Source: Thermodesulfobacteriota bacterium (GTDB taxonomy: Bacteria > Desulfobacterota_D > UBA1144 > Nemesobacterales > UBA2774). From it: DNA of 64,000 bases. Positions within the stretch are counted from its first letter, which is position 1; each line of letters begins with the position of its first letter. Position numbers and translations under genes: made by a program. The notes beneath the pieces were generated by a model. It did not search any database, was not told where the DNA came from, and was given only the letters and a program-made list of their open reading frames with translations. Location: the NCBI GenBank assembly GCA_021604765.1, contig BQJP01000001.1, positions 62,001 to 126,000 on the forward strand, in the 5' to 3' direction. Positions 9,964-51,810 of the stretch are shown here, one piece after another.

Positions 9964-10974
9964 ATGAGATTCCAAAGTAAGATTTTATTGTCAGTATTTT
10001 GTCTTGTATTAACGAGTTTTACCTTTATTTCATTTGGGCAATCAGCAAATGCTCAAGATTGGTGCTGTAATAACAATTCGGCCATGGGTGGCGATGGACA
10101 ATGTGTTCCAGCGCCGAATGGGGCAAAGAATTGTAATGGTGCAGCTTTAACATTCTTTGAAGATGGCATTAACGGTATTGAATTGGCTCCAATGGGTCCA
10201 CCACCTAATTTTCCACAATCAGGTGACTTATGTCCTAAACCGTCTCCTCGAAGAGATACCTGTATGTGTATAGATGGAAATGGCGCTACAGTTCCCTGTC
10301 AAGATTTACCGCCGCCACCTACAAATCCACCACCTACAAATCCACCACCTACGAATCCGCCACCAACAGATCCGCCACCTACAGATCCACCACCTACAAA
10401 TCCGCCACCTACGAATCCGCCACCAACAGATCCGCCACCTACGAATCCACCACCTACAGATCCGCCACCTACGAATCCACCACCTACGAATCCACCACCA
10501 ACAGATCCACCACCTACAAATCCGCCACCAACACCTACACCACCACCAGTTTCAATTGATGGATGTTGTGTAGAGGCTGTGGGGCGTTGCGCCATTACTG
10601 AACAAAGTGCGTGTGCTACACCTCCCAATGTTGAATTTCTGGGAATAGGGACTACATGTGGTAGAGTGCCCATGTGCGAGCCGGTTCCAACGCCTACACC
10701 ACCACCATTTACTACAAGTGGATGTTGTGTAGAGGATCCGGGTGTTTGTAAAGTTGTTGAATCCTCCAACGCTTGCCCTGTTCCGCCTTATTTCGATTAT
10801 GTGGCGGATGTATCTTCATGCGAAAATGTAGAAGTTTGTAATCTACCACCACCTGTAACATCTGTGCCAACAATGAATCAGTGGGGACTTGTCGCAACTG
10901 CTGTTATGCTTGGACTTTTTAGCCTGATAACAGTGAGAAGAGGCTTCAGGATCAACAATAAAGAAAACAACTAA
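9964..10974 (+). CDS. IPTL-CTERM surface protein with PPPT(N/D) stalk and Cys-rich modules
   Basis: 336 aa. In order: signal peptide (to about residue 30, SANAQ), a Cys-rich stretch with DWCCNNN, a stalk of 14 PPPTN/PPPTD units plus a partial unit (residues about 116-190), two related modules of about 40 residues beginning GCCVE (about 199 and 254), then an IPTL-CTERM tail. The tail is VPTMNQWGLVATAVMLGLF followed by a basic TVRRG. IPTL-CTERM tails are recognised by an exosortase-like enzyme (none in this window). It probably sits on or beyond the outer membrane. Confidence 0.85.
   Translation: MRFQSKILLSVFCLVLTSFTFISFGQSANAQDWCCNNNSAMGGDGQCVPAPNGAKNCNGAALTFFEDGINGIELAPMGPPPNFPQSGDLCPKPSPRRDTCMCIDGNGATVPCQDLPPPPTNPPPTNPPPTNPPPTDPPPTDPPPTNPPPTNPPPTDPPPTNPPPTDPPPTNPPPTNPPPTDPPPTNPPPTPTPPPVSIDGCCVEAVGRCAITEQSACATPPNVEFLGIGTTCGRVPMCEPVPTPTPPPFTTSGCCVEDPGVCKVVESSNACPVPPYFDYVADVSSCENVEVCNLPPPVTSVPTMNQWGLVATAVMLGLFSLITVRRGFRINNKENN
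10309..10548 (+). repeat. 15-bp tandem repeats encoding PPPT(N/D)
   Basis: Fourteen full units of about 15 bases (pattern CCACCTACRRATCCR) and a partial one. The third position varies between A and G at several codons and AAT/GAT alternate, which gives the Asn/Asp alternation. Tandem copies this similar can expand or contract by slippage, so stalk length may vary between strains. Other frames here also stay open, but only as a by-product of the repeat. Confidence 0.9.
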
Positions 10975-24520: not shown

Positions 24521-24702
24521 TTGAGACGCTAGAGTATGCAGCAGAATAAGTTATGTATGTTTTGGAAAACACGTTAACTAAGTATTAAAAAGTTGTGTAA
24601 TTGGTTGCAATTATAAGAGAATTATTATATATTCGATATTTGAATCATTATTGCTTAATAACATTAAAATTTATTTAGTTTGTCCAGTGGAGGATGGTTA
24701 AA

Positions 24703-26691
24703 ATGAGAAAGGGACTTATATTTGGCTCAGTATTTTTATCGTTTATCTTTCTAGTGGTAGTTGTATTTCTTTTATTCCCAAATAGCAAGTTGGATGAGCA
24801 AAGTGCCCAGGTTTCTTCCGAACCATCTCAATTTGAAGAAGTCCCTAAATTAATGCTGCCGGTATTGGCTGAAACTCTAGGGCGGAACAATGATACTTAT
24901 CATATAGAAAGAGAAAGCACCAAGTTTAAAGCTGTTACCGCATCTCAGGGTTTTGAGTCAGAGTTTGGTAAAAATGGCGTTACATTCTCGAGGGACAATA
25001 AGAATCTCATAATGCGTTTAGTTGGCTCTAATGAGATCGATCCTATTACTGTTTCAAAAAACAAAGTTGAATATAACAGAGGAAATATTACAGAGTGGTA
25101 TGTAAACAGCCCGCTTGGAATTGAGCAGGGGTTTACACTAAATAACTCGCCAGAAAAAAGAAGCTCAGATGGCAAAGTAGTGCTAGAAATTGGTCTTGAA
25201 ATAGATGATGAAATGCAAGTTCGACAAACAGAAGATGGAAACTCAATTAATTTTATCAGTAGCGATAACAATAAAGAGGTCTTTAGGTATAGAGGCTTGT
25301 TTGCTTTCGACTCTTCTGGAAAAGAACTACCTTCTGAAATGAAGCTTCTAGATTCCAAGATAAAGATATTAGTAGATGACCGAGGCGCTGAATATCCGAT
25401 AGTAATAGATCCATTCATAGAGATTCAAAAAATATTGCCGAGTGATGCAAAGCCCAATGTTCCTCCATCCTGGCAGTTCGGTGGTACTGTCCATATTTCT
25501 GGAAATACTGCTATTGTAGGTGCGATTCACGCTAATGGATTTTTAGGTGAAGCATATATTTTTGACCGCGATACCAGAGGGTTTTGGTCTGAGACGCAGA
25601 TTTTACAAGGTAGCAATGTTAATACTTTTGGAGATTTCTTTGGTAACTGTGTTCATATAGATAGGAATACTGCAATTGTAGGAGCTTCACATGTATTAAA
25701 CGCAGCATCACCGGGTGAGGCTTATATTTACGAGAGGGACACAACCACTAATCTGTGGAGTGAAGTTGATATTCTTACTGGAAGTACTTCTGCTCCAGGG
25801 TCCTTTTATGGAATATCCTGCACACTCGAAGAGAGTTCGGGTATTGCAATGGTTGGAGCAAACAGGGCTTTTGCAGTAGAGGGGCGGGCGTATGTATATC
25901 AAAGAGACACGATGGGGATGTGGAATGAGACACAGGTTCTAAGCCCTAGCGGCGGAATGCCGAATTTTCAGTTTGGTTTTAAGATTAATTTCCAAGGAGA
26001 CATCGCTGCTATTGGAGCTCCTGGATTAATTGGATTTCCAGTTGGTGACAGGGTGTATATATATCAAAGAGACTCTAATACCGGTCTTTGGATTGAGAAT
26101 CAAATTATTACGGGCTCTGATACAATGGCGGGTGATGCATTTGGAGTTGATGTGGATTTTGATGGTGACAATATGGTTATCGGCGCCTCTCAGTTTAACA
26201 TGAATGAGGGTAAAGCATATTTCTTTGAAAGAGATCCTATGACAAATATGTGGTTTGAGGTTGATATTGTTACTGCTGATATGCCGGTTATGGGCGAATT
26301 CTTTGGTAGTAATGTATCCATTTCGGGCGATATTGCTATTATTAGCGCAGCTCTTCTTATCACAACTAACGGTAGGGTTTTAGTATATGAAAGGGATAAT
26401 ATGGGAATGTGGTCTGAAGTCCAAGAATTGACCGCATCCGATGGGATGGTGGGGGATCAATTTGGTGTTGAGACATCTATTGATGGAAACCAGCTTATAG
26501 TGGGAGCTAATGGGGTTGACGGAGCTGCCGGCCCTCTTACTGGAGCAGCATACCTTTATGGTAATCCTGTGCCGCCAACTAGAGCGGTACCTACGCTTAA
26601 CGGGTGGGCAATAATTGCAATGACAGGGTTTTTGGGACTTTTTGGAGTGTATGCGATTAGAAAACGAATGTTAGCTGATCACCAAAACTGA
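24703..26691 (+). CDS. IPTL-CTERM protein with FG-GAP repeats
   Basis: 662 aa from the ATG at 24703; an ATG three codons earlier is too close to the GGAGG at 24689. An N-terminal hydrophobic segment acts as signal anchor. Residues about 30-240 are a beta-rich region ending GAEYPIVIDPFI. At least six FG-GAP/beta-propeller units follow (FGxxVxxxGNTAIVGAxxxxxxxGEAYIFERD). The C-terminal sorting tail is VPTLNGWAIIAMTGFLGLF, then AIRKR. Predicted surface protein, possibly adhesive or calcium-binding. The sortase-like enzyme is not in this window. Confidence 0.85.
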   Translation: MRKGLIFGSVFLSFIFLVVVVFLLFPNSKLDEQSAQVSSEPSQFEEVPKLMLPVLAETLGRNNDTYHIERESTKFKAVTASQGFESEFGKNGVTFSRDNKNLIMRLVGSNEIDPITVSKNKVEYNRGNITEWYVNSPLGIEQGFTLNNSPEKRSSDGKVVLEIGLEIDDEMQVRQTEDGNSINFISSDNNKEVFRYRGLFAFDSSGKELPSEMKLLDSKIKILVDDRGAEYPIVIDPFIEIQKILPSDAKPNVPPSWQFGGTVHISGNTAIVGAIHANGFLGEAYIFDRDTRGFWSETQILQGSNVNTFGDFFGNCVHIDRNTAIVGASHVLNAASPGEAYIYERDTTTNLWSEVDILTGSTSAPGSFYGISCTLEESSGIAMVGANRAFAVEGRAYVYQRDTMGMWNETQVLSPSGGMPNFQFGFKINFQGDIAAIGAPGLIGFPVGDRVYIYQRDSNTGLWIENQIITGSDTMAGDAFGVDVDFDGDNMVIGASQFNMNEGKAYFFERDPMTNMWFEVDIVTADMPVMGEFFGSNVSISGDIAIISAALLITTNGRVLVYERDNMGMWSEVQELTASDGMVGDQFGVETSIDGNQLIVGANGVDGAAGPLTGAAYLYGNPVPPTRAVPTLNGWAIIAMTGFLGLFGVYAIRKRMLADHQN

Positions 26692-27111: not shown

Positions 27112-27218
27112 GCATAGTTTCGTATATCGGAATTAGTTTTTTAATTGCATAAACGACTATAAGCATTGGCTACAAGGTATGACAACATGTATAAAGAGTG
27201 TTAAGATAATTGTTGAAA

Positions 27219-28664
27219 ATGGACTTTGATTCTTACGATCCCGAAGATTTCTATGATGAGCTTTTTAAAAGCAAGGGCAAGCCGCGTCCTGGCACTGAAA
27301 TATTAATTAACCGCTTGAAGTCATTCCCACAAGGAGAAATACTGAGAAGGCAAAAGGCGGCAGAAGCTGCGCTCTTTAATATGGGTGTGACGTTTACGGT
27401 TTATAGTGACGAGTCCGGCATAGAAAAAATATTCCCTTTTGATATTCTGCCAAGAATCGTAGAACCGGGTGACTGGATACAAATAGAAAAGGGACTTAAA
27501 CAACGCATCTATGCACTTAACCTTTTCATCGACGATGTATACCACGACCAGAAAATTGTAAAAGATGGCATTATTCCAAAAGACATACTTTATTCCAGTA
27601 AATGTATTCAGCCCAAATGTGTAGGCCTAAATCCACCAAAAGGAATATGGTGTCATATTACCGGGACAGACCTGGTTAGAGATAAAGATGGACGATTCTA
27701 TGTGCTAGAGGATAATTTGCGTTGCCCTTCAGGTGTATCATATGTTTTAGAGAATCGGCAAGTGTTAAAAAGAACGTTTCCACTAGTTTTCGAGAAATCA
27801 AGCATTCTACCTGTTGATGATTACCCCAACCGACTTTCCCGCATGCTTCAGTTCCTTGCGCCCGACAATGTGGAATCTCCAAATATAGCGCTTCTAACAC
27901 CCGGCATATATAACTCAGCTTATTTTGAGCATTCTTTTCTGGCCCAGCAAACTGGCATAGAGCTTGTTGAAGGAAACGATCTTGTCGTTAAAGACGGCTT
28001 TGTCTACATGCGGACAACCAAAGGTTTTGAGAAAGTCGATGTAATTTATAGACGAATTGATGATGATTTCTTGGACCCTCTTGCATTTAACCCTGATTCC
28101 TTACTTGGAGTACCCGGGATTATGGATGTTTATAAATCCGGTCGGCTTGCATTGGCTAATGCCCCAGGAACGGGAGTTGCTGATGATAAGGTTGTCTATG
28201 CATACGTCCCTAAGATAATTAAGTATTATTTGGGTGAAGATCCTATATTGCCTAATGTGCCAACATATATATGCTGGGATGATAAAGATAGAGAATATGT
28301 TCTTAACAATCTCGAGAAATTAGTAGTTAAACCGGCAAATGAGTCCGGTGGCTATGGAATGCTTATGGGCACCCATTCTACAGCGGAAGAAAGAAAAGCT
28401 TTTGCAGAAAGGATAAAAGAGAATCCTAGAAACTATATAGCCCAGCCTACACTTTCTCTCTCTCTCGTTCCGGTGATAGTGGATGACGATCACTTTGAGG
28501 GAAGGCATGTAGATTTGCGCCCATATGTGTTGTACGGAGAAGATATATATGTGATGCCGGGAGGACTCACAAGAGTTGCTCTCAAAAAAGGCTCACTTGT
28601 AGTCAATTCCTCACAGGGTGGGGGCAGCAAAGATACTTGGGTGTTGAGTAATTTGCCAAAATAA
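27219..28664 (+). CDS. Circularly permuted type 2 ATP-grasp protein (Anbu operon)
   Basis: 481 aa, DUF404/DUF407-type circularly permuted ATP-grasp. Predicted to form amide bonds between amino or carboxyl groups using ATP. Visible signatures: [36 protein letters not shown] (near residues 155-173), [16 protein letters not shown] and [19 protein letters not shown]. The ATG at 27219 is used; TTG codons lie just upstream. It is first of four genes, with 28 bases to the alpha-E gene. Comparative work groups this cassette with a proteasome-like peptidase; the product is not known. Confidence 0.9.
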
Positions 28665-28692
28665 TTGAGAATTAATATGAAGAGAAGATATC

Positions 28693-29676
28693 ATGCTTAG
28701 TAGGGTTGCCAATTCAATATACTGGATGGCCCGATATATAGAAAGGGCTGAAAACACCGCTCGATTTGTAGACGTGAACCTTCATCTAATGTTAGATGGT
28801 CACGTTGATAGTGAGGAACAATGGGAGCCGTTGGTTATAATCTCGGGGGACGTGGATCAGTTTAAGGAAAGGTATGGTGCTCCAACTAAAGATAATGTCA
28901 TAAACTTCTTGACTTTCGACCTAGAAAATCCTAATTCAATAATTTCATCAGTAAGTAGCGCTAGAGAAAATGCCCGGACTGTTAGGGAAGTTATCTCTTC
29001 TGAAATGTGGGCTCAAGTTAATAAATTTTACTACACATTATTAGATGCAGAAAAATCTGGTGTTGCACTTGATACCCCTTATGACTTTTATAACGAGGTA
29101 AAGCTGAGAAGTCACATGTTCATTGGAACTACAGACACTACAATGTCACACGGTGAAGCCTGGCATTTTGAGCGATTAGGCAGACTCTTAGAGAGAGCTG
29201 ATAAAACCTCCCGTATACTAGACGCTAAATATTATATGCTGCTTCCAAGAGTTGAAGACGTGGGTACACCGATTGACAATATTAGTTGGGTGGCATTACT
29301 TAAATCTGCGAGTGCATTTGAGATGTACAGGAAAAAATTTAGGAAGATTACTCCTAAAGATGTAGCCTTGTTTCTAATTCTGGATTTAAAGTTTCCACGT
29401 TCTATAAGATATTGTTTGCTTAAAGCTCAAGTATCGCTTCATGAAATCACTGGAACAGTGATAGGGACATTCACAAATAAGGCGGAAAGAAGATTAGGTC
29501 GCTTGCGCTCAGATCTTGATTACGCTAATATTGATGAAATAATTTCTGTTGGACTACATGAATTTTTAGACGGATTTCAGACGAAGCTTAACGGAGTAGG
29601 GGACGCAATTTTTGACACCTTCTTCTCTCTTAGACAAACTGAAAAAGACGAAAAAATTACTGAGGTTTCACAATGA
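28693..29676 (+). CDS. Alpha-E domain protein (Anbu operon)
   Basis: 327 aa, DUF403/alpha-E family, all-helical. It opens MLSRVANSIYWMARYIERAE, the hallmark of the family, and contains WAQVNKFYYTLLDAE and HFERLGRLLERADKTSRILD. It is always linked with the circularly permuted ATP-grasp and is thought to act as its partner. The last four bases overlap the ATG of the peptidase gene. Confidence 0.92.
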   Translation: MLSRVANSIYWMARYIERAENTARFVDVNLHLMLDGHVDSEEQWEPLVIISGDVDQFKERYGAPTKDNVINFLTFDLENPNSIISSVSSARENARTVREVISSEMWAQVNKFYYTLLDAEKSGVALDTPYDFYNEVKLRSHMFIGTTDTTMSHGEAWHFERLGRLLERADKTSRILDAKYYMLLPRVEDVGTPIDNISWVALLKSASAFEMYRKKFRKITPKDVALFLILDLKFPRSIRYCLLKAQVSLHEITGTVIGTFTNKAERRLGRLRSDLDYANIDEIISVGLHEFLDGFQTKLNGVGDAIFDTFFSLRQTEKDEKITEVSQ

Positions 29677-30434
29677 CGTTTTGTGTTGGAATGAAAGTAA
29701 GAAAAGGGCTTGTAGGTATAGCTGACACCCTTGTTACAACAGGGACGGAGTCTATAACTGCAAGGAAAGTTACAATACATCAGTATGGTAGACATTCGCT
29801 TTTTCTTATGACCTCTGGACTAAGATCTGTCAGAGATAAAGCGCTTACTTATTTTGATGAAGTGTTAGAAGAAAGTGATCAGGAATTTGATAAACTTTAC
29901 AAAGCTGTAAACGCGTTTGCGGCACAGGTGCGTAGAGTGGCTGATGAAGATAAGAAGGCTCTAGAAGAGAGTGGTTTGCCTTTCAACCTATTTTCTATTA
30001 TTGGTGGCCAACTCGAAAATGATAAAGAGCACAAGCTGTATATGCTCTACCCGCAGGGCAACTGGGTAGAGGTAAGCCAGGGCACTCCTTATTACCTTAT
30101 CGGAGAGTCCAGTTATGGAAAACCTATAATGGACAGAGCTCTTTCTTATGACGTTAATCTGGAGATGGCTTTGAAAATAGGCTATCTTGCCTTTGATGCT
30201 ACAAGGACTAGCGCTGTAGATGTGGATTTCCCAATAGATGTGGTGCTTTATAAGGCTGACACTTATCACATTGTTGAATATCGCTATAATGCTAAAGAGC
30301 TTATGGAAATATCCGAGTGGTGGCAGAAAATAATAAGAGAAGCCATAAGGGAACTCCCGCGTGATTGGATTGAAGCGGTCTTTTCAAAACTAGAAGATAG
30401 CCCTATCCCTATAAAAAATGCTATACAAGATTGA
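29673..30434 (+). CDS. Anbu proteasome-like peptidase
   Basis: 253 aa Ntn-hydrolase of the proteasome/HslV superfamily, matching Anbu (bacterial proteasome homologue). The sequence starts MTFCVGMKVRKGLVGIAD, with Thr2 as the presumed nucleophile after Met removal. The Asp of GIAD and the Lys of TARKV fit the catalytic set. It overlaps both neighbours (4 and 17 bases). In other genomes Anbu assembles into an open helical ring; here it would process a peptide or isopeptide made by the operon's ATP-grasp. Confidence 0.9.
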   Translation: MTFCVGMKVRKGLVGIADTLVTTGTESITARKVTIHQYGRHSLFLMTSGLRSVRDKALTYFDEVLEESDQEFDKLYKAVNAFAAQVRRVADEDKKALEESGLPFNLFSIIGGQLENDKEHKLYMLYPQGNWVEVSQGTPYYLIGESSYGKPIMDRALSYDVNLEMALKIGYLAFDATRTSAVDVDFPIDVVLYKADTYHIVEYRYNAKELMEISEWWQKIIREAIRELPRDWIEAVFSKLEDSPIPIKNAIQD

Positions 30435-31260
30435 GCACATAACCCGGTATTCTTTTAGTAAGGAGGTTTTCTTAGAACCCCATATTATTAGACTCCGCCC
30501 GAGATCAGATTCATCTCAGACACTCAAAAACTTTGATATAGATGTTAGACCTACTCCTATTGGTACAACTAAGATTGTAGATGTGGGAGGGGATTCGATA
30601 TTTCTTTGGTTTGAAGAGTTGACTGATTCTCTTGAGATTATATCCCGTTCAGAGGTCGAGACCCATAGATCTAATCCCTTTGACTATATTCTTGCCTCAG
30701 ATAGGGCTCATCGACTGCCAATGGAGTACGGAGCTCCTTATGAGACGGTTCTTGAGCCATATAGAATTCCATCATCTGAGTTTGGTGATAAATTTGAAGG
30801 GTTCGTCGCCAAGATAATGCTCGAATCGGAAAACAGTTCCCTTAAATTTCTATCCTCCTTAACATCCTATATTAATCAGAATTTTGAATATGAAACCAGA
30901 GAAGAGGGCATAGCTCAAGAACCTGAGGATACTTTGTTCAAAATGAAAGGAACGTGTAGAGATTTTGTAGTGCTCTTTGCCGAAGCGTGCAGGAGTATGG
31001 GATTTGCGGCTAGGTTTGTAAGCGGCTACACACAGGGTGATCTGAATAATATGGAGAACTACCTCCACGCCTGGGCTGAAGTATATTTGCCTGGGGGAGG
31101 GTGGAGAGGTTATGATCCAACCTTAGGACTAGCAGTAGCAGACCAGCATATATCTCTTGCTTCAGGAGCGACTCCTATTGAGGCTTCGCCTGTAGCGGGC
31201 TCATTCCGCGGCACAGATGCAGTAGCCAATATTGAATATGATCTGGCTATTAGCACTTAG
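30418..31260 (+). CDS. Transglutaminase-like protein (Anbu operon)
   Basis: 280 aa. An N-terminal bacterial transglutaminase-like domain (YKIEHITRYSFSKEVFLEPH) precedes a papain-fold core. The catalytic triad is Cys in FKMKGTCRDFVVLFAEACR (about residue 181), His in NYLHAWAEVYLPG (about 215) and Asp in GGWRGYDPTLG (about 232). It is the last gene of the four-gene operon; the start lies inside the peptidase gene. It would cleave or form amide bonds. Confidence 0.93.
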   Translation: MLYKIEHITRYSFSKEVFLEPHIIRLRPRSDSSQTLKNFDIDVRPTPIGTTKIVDVGGDSIFLWFEELTDSLEIISRSEVETHRSNPFDYILASDRAHRLPMEYGAPYETVLEPYRIPSSEFGDKFEGFVAKIMLESENSSLKFLSSLTSYINQNFEYETREEGIAQEPEDTLFKMKGTCRDFVVLFAEACRSMGFAARFVSGYTQGDLNNMENYLHAWAEVYLPGGGWRGYDPTLGLAVADQHISLASGATPIEASPVAGSFRGTDAVANIEYDLAIST

Positions 31261-33119: not shown

Positions 33120-33206
33120 GTCAAGAAACATTTTCAATAATCGGGAGTTTGCTTAGTGTATAGTGGATGAATTGTCCTTTGTGAATTATGAATATGTCTG
33201 AAAAAG

Positions 33207-33239
33207 AAAAGCCTGGTGAATTCAATCACCAGGCTTTTT
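33207..33239. terminator. Bidirectional terminator of secreted protein B
   Basis: AAAAGCCTGGTGA, loop ATTCAA, TCACCAGGCTTTTT. It is followed on the plus strand by TTGGATGGAGGAT-TGTATG, a segment almost identical to that beside the terminator at 42808. Confidence 0.9.
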
Positions 33240-33268
33240 GTTGGATGGAGGATTGTATGATCGATATT

Positions 33269-35556: not shown

Positions 35557-36693
35557 ATGGATGGATTTCATAGATTATTTTCAAGATTCGGCATTTGTTA
35601 TTTCCTAATAGCGGCCTCATTCATGCTTCCCAATCTAGGTTTCGCCGCTACTGTGACAATTGACATGGAAGTACCCTTTGATGGAATAGCTCACATTGCA
35701 GACGGTGGATTTGTTACACCGGATGTGATATCTTCCAGCCTACTGTCAACGGATCAAAATTTAACAAATCTTTTAGATAATAATCCAAACACTTTTTATC
35801 AACCTGCAGCCGGATCTAATCCCGGTGCAATAGGAAGTGATGTGCTTCTAGATTTTGATTTTCCTCCAATACCTGATAATGCCACAATAGAGAGCGTTAC
35901 ACTCAGAGTCGGTATAAGTTCAGATACTACGGATGACCCATTCTTGAGAGGGTTTTTCTTTGCTGCTTACAGCCGTCTGGATTTAACAACTTATCTTAAT
36001 GTAGATCTTGGTCCAGGCATTGTAGGTGGATTTCTTGTATCTCCTCAGACCCCTGTCTTTGTTTTTCCTCCTCTATTGGTAGTACAGGTCCCTCGCGGCA
36101 CAGTTTTTGAGATGGATCTTGCTCCCGAAGAACTAACTCTGGATAATGTTCGTAATCTAAGCGTTTCAGTTGCGGGTTTAAATGAAGCTCCATTGCTGTT
36201 TGATAGGACTACATTGGTAAATGCTACAGTTGTTTATAGTGTTCCCGATCCGCTTATTCTTTCTTTACTCCCTTTAACAGCTACAAACGAAGTAATTTCG
36301 CAGCCGGAGCACACCGTTACTGCAACGGTTGAAAGAGAAGGGGTTCCGGAAGAAGGAGTTTTGACAGATTTTAGAGTTACTTCAGGCCCAAATATCGGAC
36401 AAGTAAGTGATCCATTTAGTGGCGAATGTGTACCTGATGATTGTAGAACTGATTTAAATGGTCAAGTTTCCTGGACATACGAGACAAATAAGCAGATCGG
36501 AACTGACCTGATAGAGGCATCCACTTTTGATGAGGTAACATTTCAGGTTGTAGAATCAAACACGGTTGACAAGGTCTGGATACTTCCACCAAGTAATGTT
36601 CCAACACTATCGCAGTGGGGTCTAATAGCAATGGCGAGTATTCTCGGAATAGTTGCTTTAACAGTAATGAGAAGAAGGAAAGTTGTTGCTTAA
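35557..36693 (+). CDS. IPTL-CTERM secreted protein with Ig-like region
   Basis: 378 aa. Signal peptide to about residue 30 (PNLGFAA). Residues about 40-230 are beta-rich (TIDMEVPFDGIAHIADGG, NATIESVTLRVGISSDT). A bacterial Ig-like segment follows at about 240-340 (EHTVTATVEREGVPEEGVLT, and a DLNGQVSWTYETNKQIGTD unit). The tail is VPTLSQWGLIAMASILGIVA, then RRRK, an IPTL-CTERM signal. GAGGAGGAAGGAAA precedes the ATG. Predicted surface-exposed or released. Confidence 0.85.
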   Translation: MDGFHRLFSRFGICYFLIAASFMLPNLGFAATVTIDMEVPFDGIAHIADGGFVTPDVISSSLLSTDQNLTNLLDNNPNTFYQPAAGSNPGAIGSDVLLDFDFPPIPDNATIESVTLRVGISSDTTDDPFLRGFFFAAYSRLDLTTYLNVDLGPGIVGGFLVSPQTPVFVFPPLLVVQVPRGTVFEMDLAPEELTLDNVRNLSVSVAGLNEAPLLFDRTTLVNATVVYSVPDPLILSLLPLTATNEVISQPEHTVTATVEREGVPEEGVLTDFRVTSGPNIGQVSDPFSGECVPDDCRTDLNGQVSWTYETNKQIGTDLIEASTFDEVTFQVVESNTVDKVWILPPSNVPTLSQWGLIAMASILGIVALTVMRRRKVVA

Positions 36694-38744: not shown

Positions 38745-40766
38745 CTACATCATATTTCTAAAGATTCGTCTCCAAATCACAATTGCTGGAATAAGCATTA
38801 ATATTAGAATTGAAGAAGATTGTCCTTTTGAGGAAAGCGAGCAGCCGCCGCTTCCATCCGAAGCGTCTAATCTGTCGGGAAGTCCATCACCATTTGAATC
38901 AACTATTGTAAGTGGAGTTCCTCCGAAATCAGGATCAAATATGTCCAGATATCCGTCGCCATTTGAGTCGGTCTTGTCATCAACAAGCCCATCCCCGTCA
39001 TTGTCTCCAATGCCTCCGCTTTCTTCAAAATCCGTTTTTCCATCGTTATCAGAGTCTATATCCAGGGTGTCTGGAATTCCGTCCCCATCTGTATCTGGAG
39101 CTATTAATGCTTGTCCACCTTCAGAAGGGTCTCCCACGTCTGCAAGTCCATCTCCGTCCTGATCAGTATTGTCATCTACCCGTCCGTTAAAGTCCTGATC
39201 AAGCGCTACTCCCCCTGCTTCAACCAGATCCGGCACTCCATCATTATCAGAATCTAGGTCGAACTCGTTAGTGACTCCGTCTGAGTCGAGATCTATGCCA
39301 ATTACTTTTCCTGAGGTTGTAACTTCTTCGTCTATAATATCAATTTCCTCACTGTTCGTGATTCCGTCATTGTCTAGATCTGTATCACTATCATTACAAA
39401 TACCATCCCCGTCGCTGTTTATACAACAAAAGTTGATTGTGTAATTAGTAACACTGCCTGTTTTAGCCTGGCAAGCAAATAGCTTAATTGCATCATCAAA
39501 CGGAAATGCGTAGGCAGTTGGGCTTGCATCATTGAATACTGAGAATACAGGTTGCGCATTAGATCCCCAGTTTGAGTTGTTTCCCGCTACACATGCTCCA
39601 TCCGGAGCAGCGTTTGGAAACCCTGGGGCCCAGTTGGGGCATCCGCAGCAGTTGGCATCAGTAGTCCCGGTTGTAAAGCAGGAGCCGGCATTCACACCAG
39701 TACATGCCCAGAGTTGTTCATTAGTTGTGTTTCCTACAGTAGTGTCGCAATCTGCGCCTAATACAGTTCCTGAGGTATCTTCACAATATCCAGAAGTTGT
39801 TCCACAGTTGAAAGTATAAGGAGGTCCACAGTCACCATCGGCGCTGCATGATTTTCTGCAAAACTTTTGTGGCGCAAAGCATCCTACATATGTAGTTCCC
39901 TGATTTTGATCGTTTGTTAGCTGCATATCTGCAGGGCAGTTAGATTGAGATATTGCCAATTCTGAACTACCTCCCCAAGTCGAAGGGGATAAGGTTGATT
40001 GAGTTAAGCCCTCAGGGGCGCAACCTTTTGAATCCGTGCAGCCTGGGCTTCCACAAAAGAAAGGATTAACGCACATCTTCATATTAGGGTCACATTTCCA
40101 CTTATAGCCAAAGCCAAAAAGCGGGTAACAGTCTGAGTCTTGAGAACAAGTCGAATTATTTTTTCCTGGAAGGTTTCCAGTAAAGATACAGTTTCCATTA
40201 TTAGTGCAGTCGTATGTGCTTGGGTCAGGAATCATATCAACAGAAATATTCCCACCATCAACCATGCTTACGTCATAGCTGTCTTGTCCGTTTTGTACGA
40301 AAGTAATTTCCGCAAGTGTCGCAGGGGGTAGTCCGGTATTTACACAGTCTAGAGCGAAATCTCCACCTGAGTTAGTACAGCCCCCAGTGTCGCAGCAATT
40401 GGCAATAGTGTACTCAACGCCATTTACTGTTACTTTTTGACTATCACATGTGCCTGTTGTATTAAAGTTGCACCCGGTTCTTGCCCAGAACCTTCCGCTG
40501 TTGTAACTAAGTGGAACTAGAACTGTTGCCGACTGGCCTTTTGTCATCTCCCAGCCGCCTAAAGTTGTTTGACTTACACCACCCACGGATACTGATTGTA
40601 CAGGAGGAACTGCTCCCACATGTATGGTGTCTGAACAATTGTTGTTAATAGTTATTGTGTGCGTGGATTGCGCGAAAGCAGTATTGCTTTGTGCGTTCAT
40701 AAGCATTGGCATGAATGAAGCGAGAAACAATAAAGAAAATAGCTTGGTAACAGTTTTGAATTTCAT
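38745..40766 (-). CDS. Thaumatin-like protein with thrombospondin-3 calcium repeats and a GGC sorting tail
   Basis: 673 aa. Signal peptide to about residue 33. A thaumatin-family fold spans about 35-440: THTITINNNCSDTIHVGAVP, GRFWARTGCNF, NCCDTGGC, TLAEITFVQNGQDSYDVSMV, PDMQL-type cores and many cysteines. Residues about 450-640 are calcium-binding DxDxDGxxD units (DSDGDGICNDSDTDLDNDGI). The end is SGGCSLSSKGQSSSILILML, hydrophobic, then WRRIFR. This resembles Gly-Gly/Cys CTERM signals (GlyGly-, MYXO- or JDVT-CTERM type), unlike the IPTL tails elsewhere. Predicted large surface protein. Confidence 0.8.
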   Translation of the reverse strand: MKFKTVTKLFSLLFLASFMPMLMNAQSNTAFAQSTHTITINNNCSDTIHVGAVPPVQSVSVGGVSQTTLGGWEMTKGQSATVLVPLSYNSGRFWARTGCNFNTTGTCDSQKVTVNGVEYTIANCCDTGGCTNSGGDFALDCVNTGLPPATLAEITFVQNGQDSYDVSMVDGGNISVDMIPDPSTYDCTNNGNCIFTGNLPGKNNSTCSQDSDCYPLFGFGYKWKCDPNMKMCVNPFFCGSPGCTDSKGCAPEGLTQSTLSPSTWGGSSELAISQSNCPADMQLTNDQNQGTTYVGCFAPQKFCRKSCSADGDCGPPYTFNCGTTSGYCEDTSGTVLGADCDTTVGNTTNEQLWACTGVNAGSCFTTGTTDANCCGCPNWAPGFPNAAPDGACVAGNNSNWGSNAQPVFSVFNDASPTAYAFPFDDAIKLFACQAKTGSVTNYTINFCCINSDGDGICNDSDTDLDNDGITNSEEIDIIDEEVTTSGKVIGIDLDSDGVTNEFDLDSDNDGVPDLVEAGGVALDQDFNGRVDDNTDQDGDGLADVGDPSEGGQALIAPDTDGDGIPDTLDIDSDNDGKTDFEESGGIGDNDGDGLVDDKTDSNGDGYLDIFDPDFGGTPLTIVDSNGDGLPDRLDASDGSGGCSLSSKGQSSSILILMLIPAIVIWRRIFRNMM

Positions 40767-40872
40767 TCGAATCCTCCTTTAAGTACCATCAAAATAATAT
40801 AATACCTTAATAATAAGTAGTACGTATGTAGAGGGTTTGGTGGATTGAATTAAAAAGACAGTATTTATTATA

Positions 40873-41844
40873 TTAGCTTGCTTGATTTATCGAAACGATA
40901 GACTGATACAACATTTCACGAACAAATATTTCTAATTCTTCAGATAGTCTAGAGACTTCGGTAATAGTAGGAAGATCTTTATCCTTATGTATTAATTTGC
41001 TTCTAACAGCATAACATTTTTTGAAAAAGTCAGAAGCAGATAGATTCATATATTTCTTCTCTCTTAGATATTTAGATGCTAATTCAGCACCTGATTGACT
41101 AATTGATTTCTTTTTTAGTTGACCAATGGATGATACCAACGATTGTTTTTCTTTTTCATCTAAATTTGATTTTTGGGTCAACTTAATTATTTCATCTATA
41201 TGTTTTCTGGCATTCTGTGATCTTCTTTCTTGATCTATTAATGCTTCTAGAGACATAATTCTAAGTAAAAATCTAATGTCTGAATTTTCTTGAAAAAAGG
41301 AGGAGTTATATGCTTCAATAGAAATAATTTGGTTCTCTGTTATTGAATAATTGTTTTCAATTATGTAATCAATATTCTTTTCTATATTTTTCATTTCTTC
41401 AATATCTGAGAAAATCAATACATCTTGTTTTCCTGATCTTGGTATATTAGAAAAATCAATTGTTTCCATAACCATAACACCGTGTATATCTTCAGTTGGA
41501 GCCTGCAAAGCAAGACCTTTTGAGATATATTTGTATTGTTTGGATGTATCTTTTGTTCGAAATACTCTTACTCCATAATCATGCCCTATACCTTGTAATG
41601 ATAGAGATATTTTGAATGCTTGTAAAAACGCATATCCACTTTGTCTAGCTTTTTCTTCAGATTCCCATCCAGAGCTTTTTAGGATGAATTCAGTTGACTT
41701 TCTAATACTCGTTTTAAGATTTTTAGATAGCAATTCTACATTCATATTGATACTGTCTAAATTAAATTTATAAACTTTTGATTCAATATCAAAACGCTGG
41801 TGGGGACTGATAATAAACTTTATTATAAAACTATAATCTGTCAT
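40873..41844 (-). CDS. ApeA-like HEPN-domain protein
   Basis: 323 aa from ATG 41842-41844; a TTG at 41892 is possible, and neither has a Shine-Dalgarno. The C-terminal half is an ApeA-like HEPN: RIMSLEALIDQE near 210-221, then an RxxxxH motif in YAVRSKLIHKDKDL (Arg281/His286), followed by helices to the end. HEPN domains are metal-independent RNases in many defence and toxin systems. The N-terminal region (about 1-190) is unrecognised and may sense or bind a target. It lies 65 bases downstream of its DUF3800-like partner. The pair is noticeably AT-rich relative to neighbours. Confidence 0.8.
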   Translation of the reverse strand: MTDYSFIIKFIISPHQRFDIESKVYKFNLDSINMNVELLSKNLKTSIRKSTEFILKSSGWESEEKARQSGYAFLQAFKISLSLQGIGHDYGVRVFRTKDTSKQYKYISKGLALQAPTEDIHGVMVMETIDFSNIPRSGKQDVLIFSDIEEMKNIEKNIDYIIENNYSITENQIISIEAYNSSFFQENSDIRFLLRIMSLEALIDQERRSQNARKHIDEIIKLTQKSNLDEKEKQSLVSSIGQLKKKSISQSGAELASKYLREKKYMNLSASDFFKKCYAVRSKLIHKDKDLPTITEVSRLSEELEIFVREMLYQSIVSINQAS

Positions 41845-41909
41845 TGTGATTTGTCTTAAAGTAACAAAAAACGAATAGGTTAAAATAGTCAATAAAGACT
41901 AAGACAACA

Positions 41910-42758
41910 TTATACGATTATTAGAGATTTATCTTCAATTTTTGTACTCTGGATGTCGTCATATAAAGACTCATGAAGAAATATTATTGTATCATTGGTA
42001 ATATCCTGGAATGAAAACCTTTTATCTAAACCTTGTTGAATTATATTTCTTGGTTCAAGATCATATTTGTCAGACTTGCTATCTAAAATAGACCTGCTAA
42101 TTATACTATTTAAACAGTCTATTAGTCGTTCACGTTTCACCATGCTCTTTGTAAAGAATTCTAATGGCTCTATGAATACATTTTTATTGTTTATTGATTC
42201 ATCTTGAAATTTCTGTACGTGTTTTTGTAGATTTTCTGAACAGTAATCAAGGACTATATATGAATCAGATTTTGGGTAGCTGAAACTGTCAATGAATATA
42301 TAGAAACGATAATTGTCACCATCATTGCAATCAAGAAATCTAACTATATTATCAAATACACAGCTTAATAGTATTTGACTATGAAGTAAATGAACATCTT
42401 TACGTTCCTTAACACCTCTGAATATTTTACGACCTAGGTTGCTCACATTTAAATAGTTGATACTAGTTTCTTCTAGTTGTTCATTGTTTAAGTCAAGGTA
42501 TCTTGCTGTAATATATAAATTGTTTAAGCTGACTTGACTTGCAATTTTATTAGCACGATTTTTTGTTATTCTGTTGTTTTTTACAGGTTGACTATTTGAT
42601 AAGCCCATGGATGTACCGAGAGATCTAAATATCTTTACTTCATTGTTTGCTGTATAAAGAGCGGAAACCCCCAAAAAGTTTCCTGAGGATGTTGTATCTT
42701 TAAATGATGGAGTACCAAATTCATCGAAAAGTACAATGACTTCTTGTATCTGAGGCAT
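41910..42758 (-). CDS. DUF3800-like protein, partner of the HEPN gene
   Basis: 282 aa. It begins QEVIVLFDEFGTPSFKD, then NFLGVSALYT, the pattern of DUF3800 (D-E-x-G near the start), a family predicted to have an RNase H-like fold and often found in defence islands. Further acidic residues are in RFYIFIDSFSYPKSDSYIVL (about residues 150-169). It forms a two-gene unit with the HEPN gene. A promoter candidate TTGAAA-N17-ATATTA lies just after the terminator at 42808. The family call is moderate. Confidence 0.65.
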   Translation of the reverse strand: MPQIQEVIVLFDEFGTPSFKDTTSSGNFLGVSALYTANNEVKIFRSLGTSMGLSNSQPVKNNRITKNRANKIASQVSLNNLYITARYLDLNNEQLEETSINYLNVSNLGRKIFRGVKERKDVHLLHSQILLSCVFDNIVRFLDCNDGDNYRFYIFIDSFSYPKSDSYIVLDYCSENLQKHVQKFQDESINNKNVFIEPLEFFTKSMVKRERLIDCLNSIISRSILDSKSDKYDLEPRNIIQQGLDKRFSFQDITNDTIIFLHESLYDDIQSTKIEDKSLIIV

Positions 42759-42807
42759 TTTCTATCTAAATATTAATATATACATTAACTTTATGTTTTC
42801 AATAAGG

Positions 42808-42843
42808 AAAAGCCCGGGGAGCGGTTAGGCTCCCCGGGCTTTT
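42808..42843. terminator. Bidirectional terminator of secreted protein D
   Basis: AAAAGCCCGGGGAG, loop CGGTTAGG, CTCCCCGGGCTTTT: 14-bp perfect stem. The following TTGGATGGAGGAT-GGTATG matches the flank of the terminator at 33207. Confidence 0.92.
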
Positions 42844-42891
42844 GGTTGGATGGAGGATGGTATGGCGTTGCGCACTGTGTGCGCTGGACTC

Positions 42892-50187: not shown

Positions 50188-51810
50188 ATGAAAAAATTAA
50201 ATAGCTATCAGTTTGCTCTATTTATAGTATTGCTTAGCATTTTGGCAGTTGGTGGTTGCAATGAAAATTCAAATAACAATGGTGATCAAACAAGATCAAT
50301 TGACGGATCTGGAAATAACATAAACCAACCCTTAATGGGAGCGACTTTTACTGAACTTGTAAGGTATATCTTCTCAGATTATGAAGACGGTATTTCAGAA
50401 ATGCAGGAAGCAGGGTTTCCAAGCGCAAGACTGGTGAGTAACATTGTGTGCTCTCAAGAACAACTAATACCCAATCCCTTAAATGCCAGTGACTATATAT
50501 GGCAGTGGGGTCAATTCTTAGACCATGATATAGATTTCACTAATGGTGCTGACCCTGTAGAACCTGCTGATATTGCAGTCCCTGTGGGGGATCCGTTTTT
50601 TGATCCGTTTGATACAGGAACGCAAGTAATAACTTTTAACAGATCTGCTTTTAATACTTCTACAGGTACTGGAGTTGATAACCCGCGTCAGCAGATCAAT
50701 ACGATAACAACTTGGATAGATGCATCAAATGTTTATGGTTCAGATGTTGAAAGAGCAACCGTGCTGAGAACTAATGACGGCACTGGAAGGTTGAACACAA
50801 GTGCTGGGGATCTTCTTCCTTTTAATACAGAGGGGCTTCCGAATGACGGCGGCGATGATGATCCTTTTTTATTCTTAGCCGGAGATTTCAGAGCTAATGA
50901 GCAGGTTGGGCTCACATCTATGCATACACTCTTTGTGAGAGAGCATAATAGATATGTGACTGCGCTTGCGATCGATAGACCCGGGTTAAGTGGTGAGGAA
51001 CTCTATCAAAAAGGGAGACGCTTTGTAGGGGCGCTTATGCAGGCTATAACTTATAATGAGTTCTTGCCGGCTCTTATGGGTAATGGGGCAATCTCTGCTT
51101 ACAATGGCTATAATCCAAGTGTTGACGCTTCTATCGCAAATATATTCTCTACCGCTGCATACAGGTTTGGACATAGTATGTTAAGCCCTGTGCTTCAGAG
51201 GCTTGATCAAAATCTCAATGTAATACCACAGGGTAATTTAGAATTAAGAGATGCATTTTTCACTCCAGAGACAATAACAGATGAAGGCGGAATAGATCCG
51301 ATATTAAGAGGACTTGCAAAACAAGTTGCTCAACGTCTAGATACTTTAATTGTGGATGATGTGCGCAATTTTCTTTTTGGGCCTCCTGGCTCGGGTGGTT
51401 TTGATCTTGCATCACTAAATATGCAAAGGGGCAGGGACCACGGACTTCCCCGTTATAACGACGTAAGGGAACAGATGGGACTTTCAAGAGTAACCTCATT
51501 TCAGGAAATAAACTCAGACCCTGATATTGAGATGAAACTACAAGAGGCTTACGGGAATGTAGATTCAATAGATCTCTGGGCTGGTGGGCTTGCTGAAGAG
51601 CCGCTTGCAGGATCACATCTAGGAGAGTTGTTTCAGCTTATAATAAAGACTCAGTTTGAGGCATTAAGAGACGGAGACCGTTTTTGGTACGAGCGCAAGC
51701 TTGGCAATGCAGAGCTTTCGGAAGTTCTAGCTACGAAGCTGTCTGATGTGATCAAAAGAAACACTGGGATCGGCGCTGAATTACAAGATAACGTATTTAA
51801 TGTCCAGTAA
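50188..51810 (+). CDS. Animal-type haem peroxidase lipoprotein
   Basis: 540 aa. Lipoprotein signal to Cys24 (ILAVGGC). The peroxidase-cyclooxygenase superfamily fold follows: distal His113 in WGQFLDHDIDFT, the FRANEQVGLTSMHTLFVREHNR region with catalytic Arg (near 238), proximal His in YRFGHSMLSP (about 330), and LNMQRGRDHGLPRYNDVREQ. Members oxidise halides or organics with H2O2. AAGAAAGGGGATAG precedes the ATG. It would be anchored in the periplasm or outer membrane. Confidence 0.92.
   Translation: MKKLNSYQFALFIVLLSILAVGGCNENSNNNGDQTRSIDGSGNNINQPLMGATFTELVRYIFSDYEDGISEMQEAGFPSARLVSNIVCSQEQLIPNPLNASDYIWQWGQFLDHDIDFTNGADPVEPADIAVPVGDPFFDPFDTGTQVITFNRSAFNTSTGTGVDNPRQQINTITTWIDASNVYGSDVERATVLRTNDGTGRLNTSAGDLLPFNTEGLPNDGGDDDPFLFLAGDFRANEQVGLTSMHTLFVREHNRYVTALAIDRPGLSGEELYQKGRRFVGALMQAITYNEFLPALMGNGAISAYNGYNPSVDASIANIFSTAAYRFGHSMLSPVLQRLDQNLNVIPQGNLELRDAFFTPETITDEGGIDPILRGLAKQVAQRLDTLIVDDVRNFLFGPPGSGGFDLASLNMQRGRDHGLPRYNDVREQMGLSRVTSFQEINSDPDIEMKLQEAYGNVDSIDLWAGGLAEEPLAGSHLGELFQLIIKTQFEALRDGDRFWYERKLGNAELSEVLATKLSDVIKRNTGIGAELQDNVFNVQ

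Follow-up and report, generated by a model that had tools for sequence, protein, structure and literature searches.

Genes for HEPN proteins were reported in 2013 in neighbourhoods with a gene for the NamA domain, which has a novel RNase H fold; RlfA of phage P1 is listed with this fold (PMC3710099). RlfA matches DUF3800 at an E-value of 3.5e-14. This result indicates that the RNase H-fold protein named in PMC3710099 belongs to DUF3800, and therefore that the combination of HEPN with DUF3800 is of an already known kind. DUF3800 is reported to be an RNase H-fold nuclease associated with Cas12a2 and VI-F loci (PMC10910872, PMC12669027). On pEK499, the plasmid that names the pEK499_p136 HEPN family, the HEPN gene and a DUF3800 gene are 3.5 kb apart and flank an IS66 element. 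The gene directly beside the HEPN gene of pEK499 was considered as a counterpart of the partner analysed here and rejected, as the two are unrelated.

The window, the whole stretch of 64,000 nucleotides that was analysed, contains an HEPN gene adjacent to a DUF3800-like gene, the product of which falls below the curated cut-off for DUF3800 membership. This small and recently acquired pair probably encodes two enzymes that cut RNA or other nucleic acids, of types with which bacteria counter viruses. It is probably a divergent example of the described combination, with a different HEPN family, and no new kind of system. Like the HEPN and NamA neighbourhoods of the pEK499_p136 type (PMC3710099), it places an HEPN RNase gene beside a gene for a putative DUF3800/NamA-type RNase H-fold nuclease. 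Three things set it apart from these neighbourhoods: the HEPN protein of the window gives no match to PF18736 and has roughly double the length, its DUF3800-like partner has diverged, and the pair is without an HTH gene. Two intact genes on the same strand, a foreign composition, a site that is empty in congeners, an HEPN domain with an intact R-x4-H motif and a partner with conserved Asp/Glu motifs are observed directly. We tentatively favour the reading that the pair arrived by horizontal transfer as a two-gene nuclease cassette of the HEPN and NamA/DUF3800 kind, which would most likely be an anti-phage (abortive-infection-type) or toxin-antitoxin-like module. The two genes are as follows.

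40873..41844, minus strand: HEPN protein gene; open reading frame of 323 aa from ATG, where relatives on three plasmids also begin
41910..42758, minus strand: DUF3800-like protein gene; 282 aa, predicted RNase H-fold nuclease, 48% identical to a protein of G030, a genome of another genus

The preliminary description of this DNA had reported a pair of genes that is more AT-rich than its flanks. Both open reading frames are found, on the same strand, at the coordinates that it gave, except that the start of the HEPN frame is corrected to the ATG at 41844. The program-listed start is an upstream TTG at 41892, which gives a protein of 339 aa; the ATG is the more likely start because the relatives begin there. 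Both reading frames are unbroken across ~1.8 kb. The G+C contents of the HEPN and DUF3800-like genes are 28.6% and 30.4%, as compared with 37-45% in the neighbouring genes, and their GC3 values are 0.20 and 0.24, as compared with 0.30-0.36, which bears out the AT-richness. With the ATG start, the genes are separated by a gap of 65 bases, which contains promoter-like matches near chance level and no terminator. By reading of translations, no gene in the surroundings of the pair in the window is recognised as a defence gene, and no integrase or transposase is recognised beside it. An Rfam scan of the cassette for DUF3800-associated RNA motifs gives no match.

The site of the pair is defined by the following features.

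40845..42807, no strand: inserted segment, limits approximate, from comparison with the empty sites of congeners
42808..42843, no strand: strong GC hairpin, called from sequence, part of a conserved hairpin and GGTTGGATGGAGGATGGTATGG element; borders the insert upstream and occurs at the empty sites of G034, G035 and G036 as well

The congeners G034, G035 and G036 (3/3) carry the same surface gene, followed by the same genes, with nothing inserted between them. At these empty sites, the promoter region of the surface gene lies close to the hairpin element, which is followed by GGTTGGATGGAGGATGGTATGG. In the window, the homologous promoter region stops near 40845-40872, at the edge of the insert. 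The empty sites indicate that the insert is ~1.9 kb long, has clean edges and is without a recombinase of its own. The hairpin upstream and the unrelated surface-protein gene downstream are where the preliminary description had placed them, and its claim that the pair was acquired is supported by the empty site in three congeners together with the foreign composition. In G030, a lone DUF3800-like gene is located upstream of the orthologous surface gene at the equivalent site (L007 7950-8849), and its G+C content is 31.8% inside a locus of 53.4%. With two occupied and several empty sites, the surface-gene site looks like a recurrent landing place for such genes.

A GC-rich hairpin with (G)GTTGGATGGAGGAT(G/T)GTATG after it is present in two copies in the genome, at 33180-33260 and 42808-42865 of the window. 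Three congeners have the 42.8 kb copy at the corresponding site, where it is better conserved than its surroundings. This hairpin and the sequence that follows it may represent a terminator together with an unknown element. The protein encoded by the surface gene (38745-40766) ends in a GG-C tail, which differs from that of three secreted proteins of the window (9964-10974, 24694-26691 and 35557-36693), which have a VPT(L/M)..W..(I/V)A hydrophobic tail with a basic end that resembles IPTL-CTERM sorting signals.

Direct scans of both window proteins against Pfam, NCBIfam and PADLOC give no HEPN or DUF3800 match and nothing else convincing, and the HEPN and DUF3800 assignments rest on relatives and profile comparison. 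The HEPN protein is divided as follows.

40963..41334, minus strand: HEPN domain, residues ~187-310 of the 339-aa reading, from hhalign to the ApeA-type HEPN profile
40987..41004, minus strand: R-x4-H catalytic motif RSKLIH, of the invariant form RSxxxH; R and H invariant in 4/4 family members
41338..41844, minus strand: family-specific N-terminal region; no Pfam domain and no match to the ApeA N-terminal region

Three relatives of the HEPN protein are found, each on a plasmid (Arthrobacter, Alteromonas and Cytobacillus). The relative on the Arthrobacter plasmid pJ349-116 belongs to the same HEPN family, with 27% identity over 93% of the length, and the Alteromonas relative is annotated as an HEPN domain protein. 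When the four-sequence profile is compared with ten ApeA-type HEPN proteins by hhalign, the score is 28.9, as compared with a shuffle maximum of 17.3 (n=60), and the alignment spans the whole domain (~107 columns) with the motif in the correct register. The C-terminal half scores 27.7 against ApeA-type HEPN, as compared with a shuffle maximum of 18.4, and none of the 200 shuffles reaches 27.7, whereas the N-terminal half scores the same as shuffles. The probability that hhalign itself gives for the HEPN match is low (9%), so that it is the shuffles and the register of the motif that support HEPN. A single-sequence model of the protein is helical from residue 198 on, with a mean pLDDT of only 36. 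The HEPN call of the preliminary description is therefore supported by a profile-profile score well above every shuffle, with no direct library match, and the intact RxxxxH motif that it had noticed is RSKLIH. Its term ApeA-like stands for the HEPN domain and not for the N-terminal region. As in ApeA (PF18739, HEPN_Apea), the window protein has an HEPN domain with R-x4-H, and the two align over ~107 columns; unlike in ApeA, its N-terminal region is shorter and unmatched, and Pfam gives no direct match.

The motifs of the DUF3800-like protein are as follows.

42720..42725, minus strand: Asp12-Glu13 of FDEFG, equivalent of DUF3800 DESG; column conserved in 8/8 DUF3800 proteins
42288..42290, minus strand: Asp157 (FIDS), probable second catalytic Asp; invariant in the pair of relatives, role read from the alignment
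42117..42119, minus strand: Asp214 (LIDCL), equivalent of Q-x-A-D; column conserved in 8/8 DUF3800 proteins

The G030 relative matches PF12686 at an E-value of 0.0021 with 19.2 bits, just below the cut-off of 21, and this match begins at the DE motif. The window protein itself does not match PF12686, and so does not reach the gathering score. Unsupervised alignment to eight accepted members of DUF3800 gives a match at seven conserved columns, a number reached by 1 of 120 shuffles. Asp157 follows a predicted strand, like the second Asp of DUF3800, according to a reading of the alignment. When profiles are compared with each other, the match to local DUF3800 sets (eight proteins) is not significant. 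These results suggest that the DUF3800 assignment is likely, though not established. The DUF3800 call made earlier is weakly supported: the Asp/Glu motifs and the E-value of the relative speak for it, and the sub-threshold score and the lack of a direct match against it. The protein resembles DUF3800 (PF12686; P1 RlfA and the TPR-DUF3800 partner of Cas12a2) in its DE motif, later Asp motifs and order of elements, but has FDEFG for DESG and LIDCL for Q-x-A-D.

None of the three HEPN relatives has a DUF3800 neighbour. The Arthrobacter relative (L003 5016-7752) adjoins a PDC-S25 SIR2 protein, where the window has the DUF3800-like protein, and is flanked by Tn3 and IS256 transposases. The Alteromonas relative (L005 1293-4417) is located beside a type VI retron RT, an HTH gene and a type I restriction-modification locus (methylase), and the neighbours of the Cytobacillus relative are a DUF4238 protein and an integrase. 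Because HEPN relatives adjoin known defence genes, a role in defence is plausible; the suggestion in the preliminary description that the partner may sense phage is unsupported. A weak DzbB match of one HEPN relative raised Dazbog as a candidate, which is rejected because Dazbog includes a DUF262 protein, not seen here. No relative of the window HEPN protein is present anywhere in the G030 genome (98% complete). Scans of genome contigs and viral contigs with single proteins and alignments give no relatives, and tblastn against phages gives no match for either protein. As these contig scans work with short peptide patterns, the lack of further pairs among their results is weak evidence. Co-occurrence of a homologous pair elsewhere, on which the preliminary description had let its defence-cassette reading depend, is not found (0/3 HEPN relatives, and a lone gene in G030). 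This reading is plausible in that HEPN relatives adjoin SIR2, retron and restriction genes, and is weakened in that the pair itself is not found elsewhere in these searches.

The chief and serious rival to the cassette is that the two genes were acquired independently at a hotspot upstream of the surface gene, the DUF3800-like gene before the HEPN gene, each acting alone and without a joint system. This has a substantial chance of being correct. The AT-rich DUF3800-like gene that stands alone at the equivalent place in G030, the occurrence of HEPN relatives without DUF3800, and the gap between the genes with its near-chance promoter-like matches agree with it. However, the genes are adjacent on the same strand with no terminator between them, their G+C and GC3 values are nearly equal, and both are absent together from the congeners. 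Neighbourhoods of HEPN with NamA/DUF3800 are, moreover, already recorded (PMC3710099). The pair may instead be a decaying or neutral remnant of a mobile element that is currently functionless. The lack of a recognised integrase or transposase beside it (by reading) and its clean insertion in a housekeeping region are compatible with a remnant, but the frames are unbroken and the catalytic motifs are shared with relatives at 22-48% identity, so that this explanation is improbable.

HEPN toxins are commonly accompanied by an adjacent partner gene. This arrangement (PMC3710099) and the position of the DUF3800-like gene as the first of the two, as is often so for antitoxin genes, would fit a toxin-antitoxin pair, in which the HEPN RNase is a toxin bound and restrained by the DUF3800-like protein. 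Such a pair is nevertheless unlikely. The partner retains its Asp/Glu motifs, which suggests that it is an enzyme rather than a plain binder; HEPN relatives occur without the partner, and the partner is present without the HEPN gene in G030.

If the two genes form the favoured acquired cassette, the HEPN protein would receive a trigger through its N-terminal region, and would then dimerise and cut RNA without metal. The DUF3800-like protein would be a nuclease of RNase H fold that needs metal and cleaves RNA or RNA-DNA hybrids. The joint damage by both enzymes may be hard to repair, or the DUF3800-like protein may gate the HEPN enzyme. It is doubtful that the pair is a new two-component defence system, in which a divergent DUF3800-type RNase H-fold nuclease processes phage RNA or RNA-DNA hybrids into the trigger and either licenses an HEPN RNase that has an undescribed sensor region or works in series with it.

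The locus adds a divergent HEPN family, seen on plasmids by retron, SIR2 and restriction genes, to the likely defence RNases. As the NamA domain of 2013 is tied to DUF3800, the HEPN-NamA and DUF3800-CRISPR observations become one question, namely which target DUF3800 cuts and why it keeps company with RNA-targeting effectors.

Two further loci of the window are noted by reading of translations. A four-gene cluster at 27210-31260 encodes ATP-grasp-like, alpha-E-like, proteasome-type protease-like and transglutaminase-like proteins, and the gene at 50188-51810 encodes a protein similar to animal haem peroxidases.
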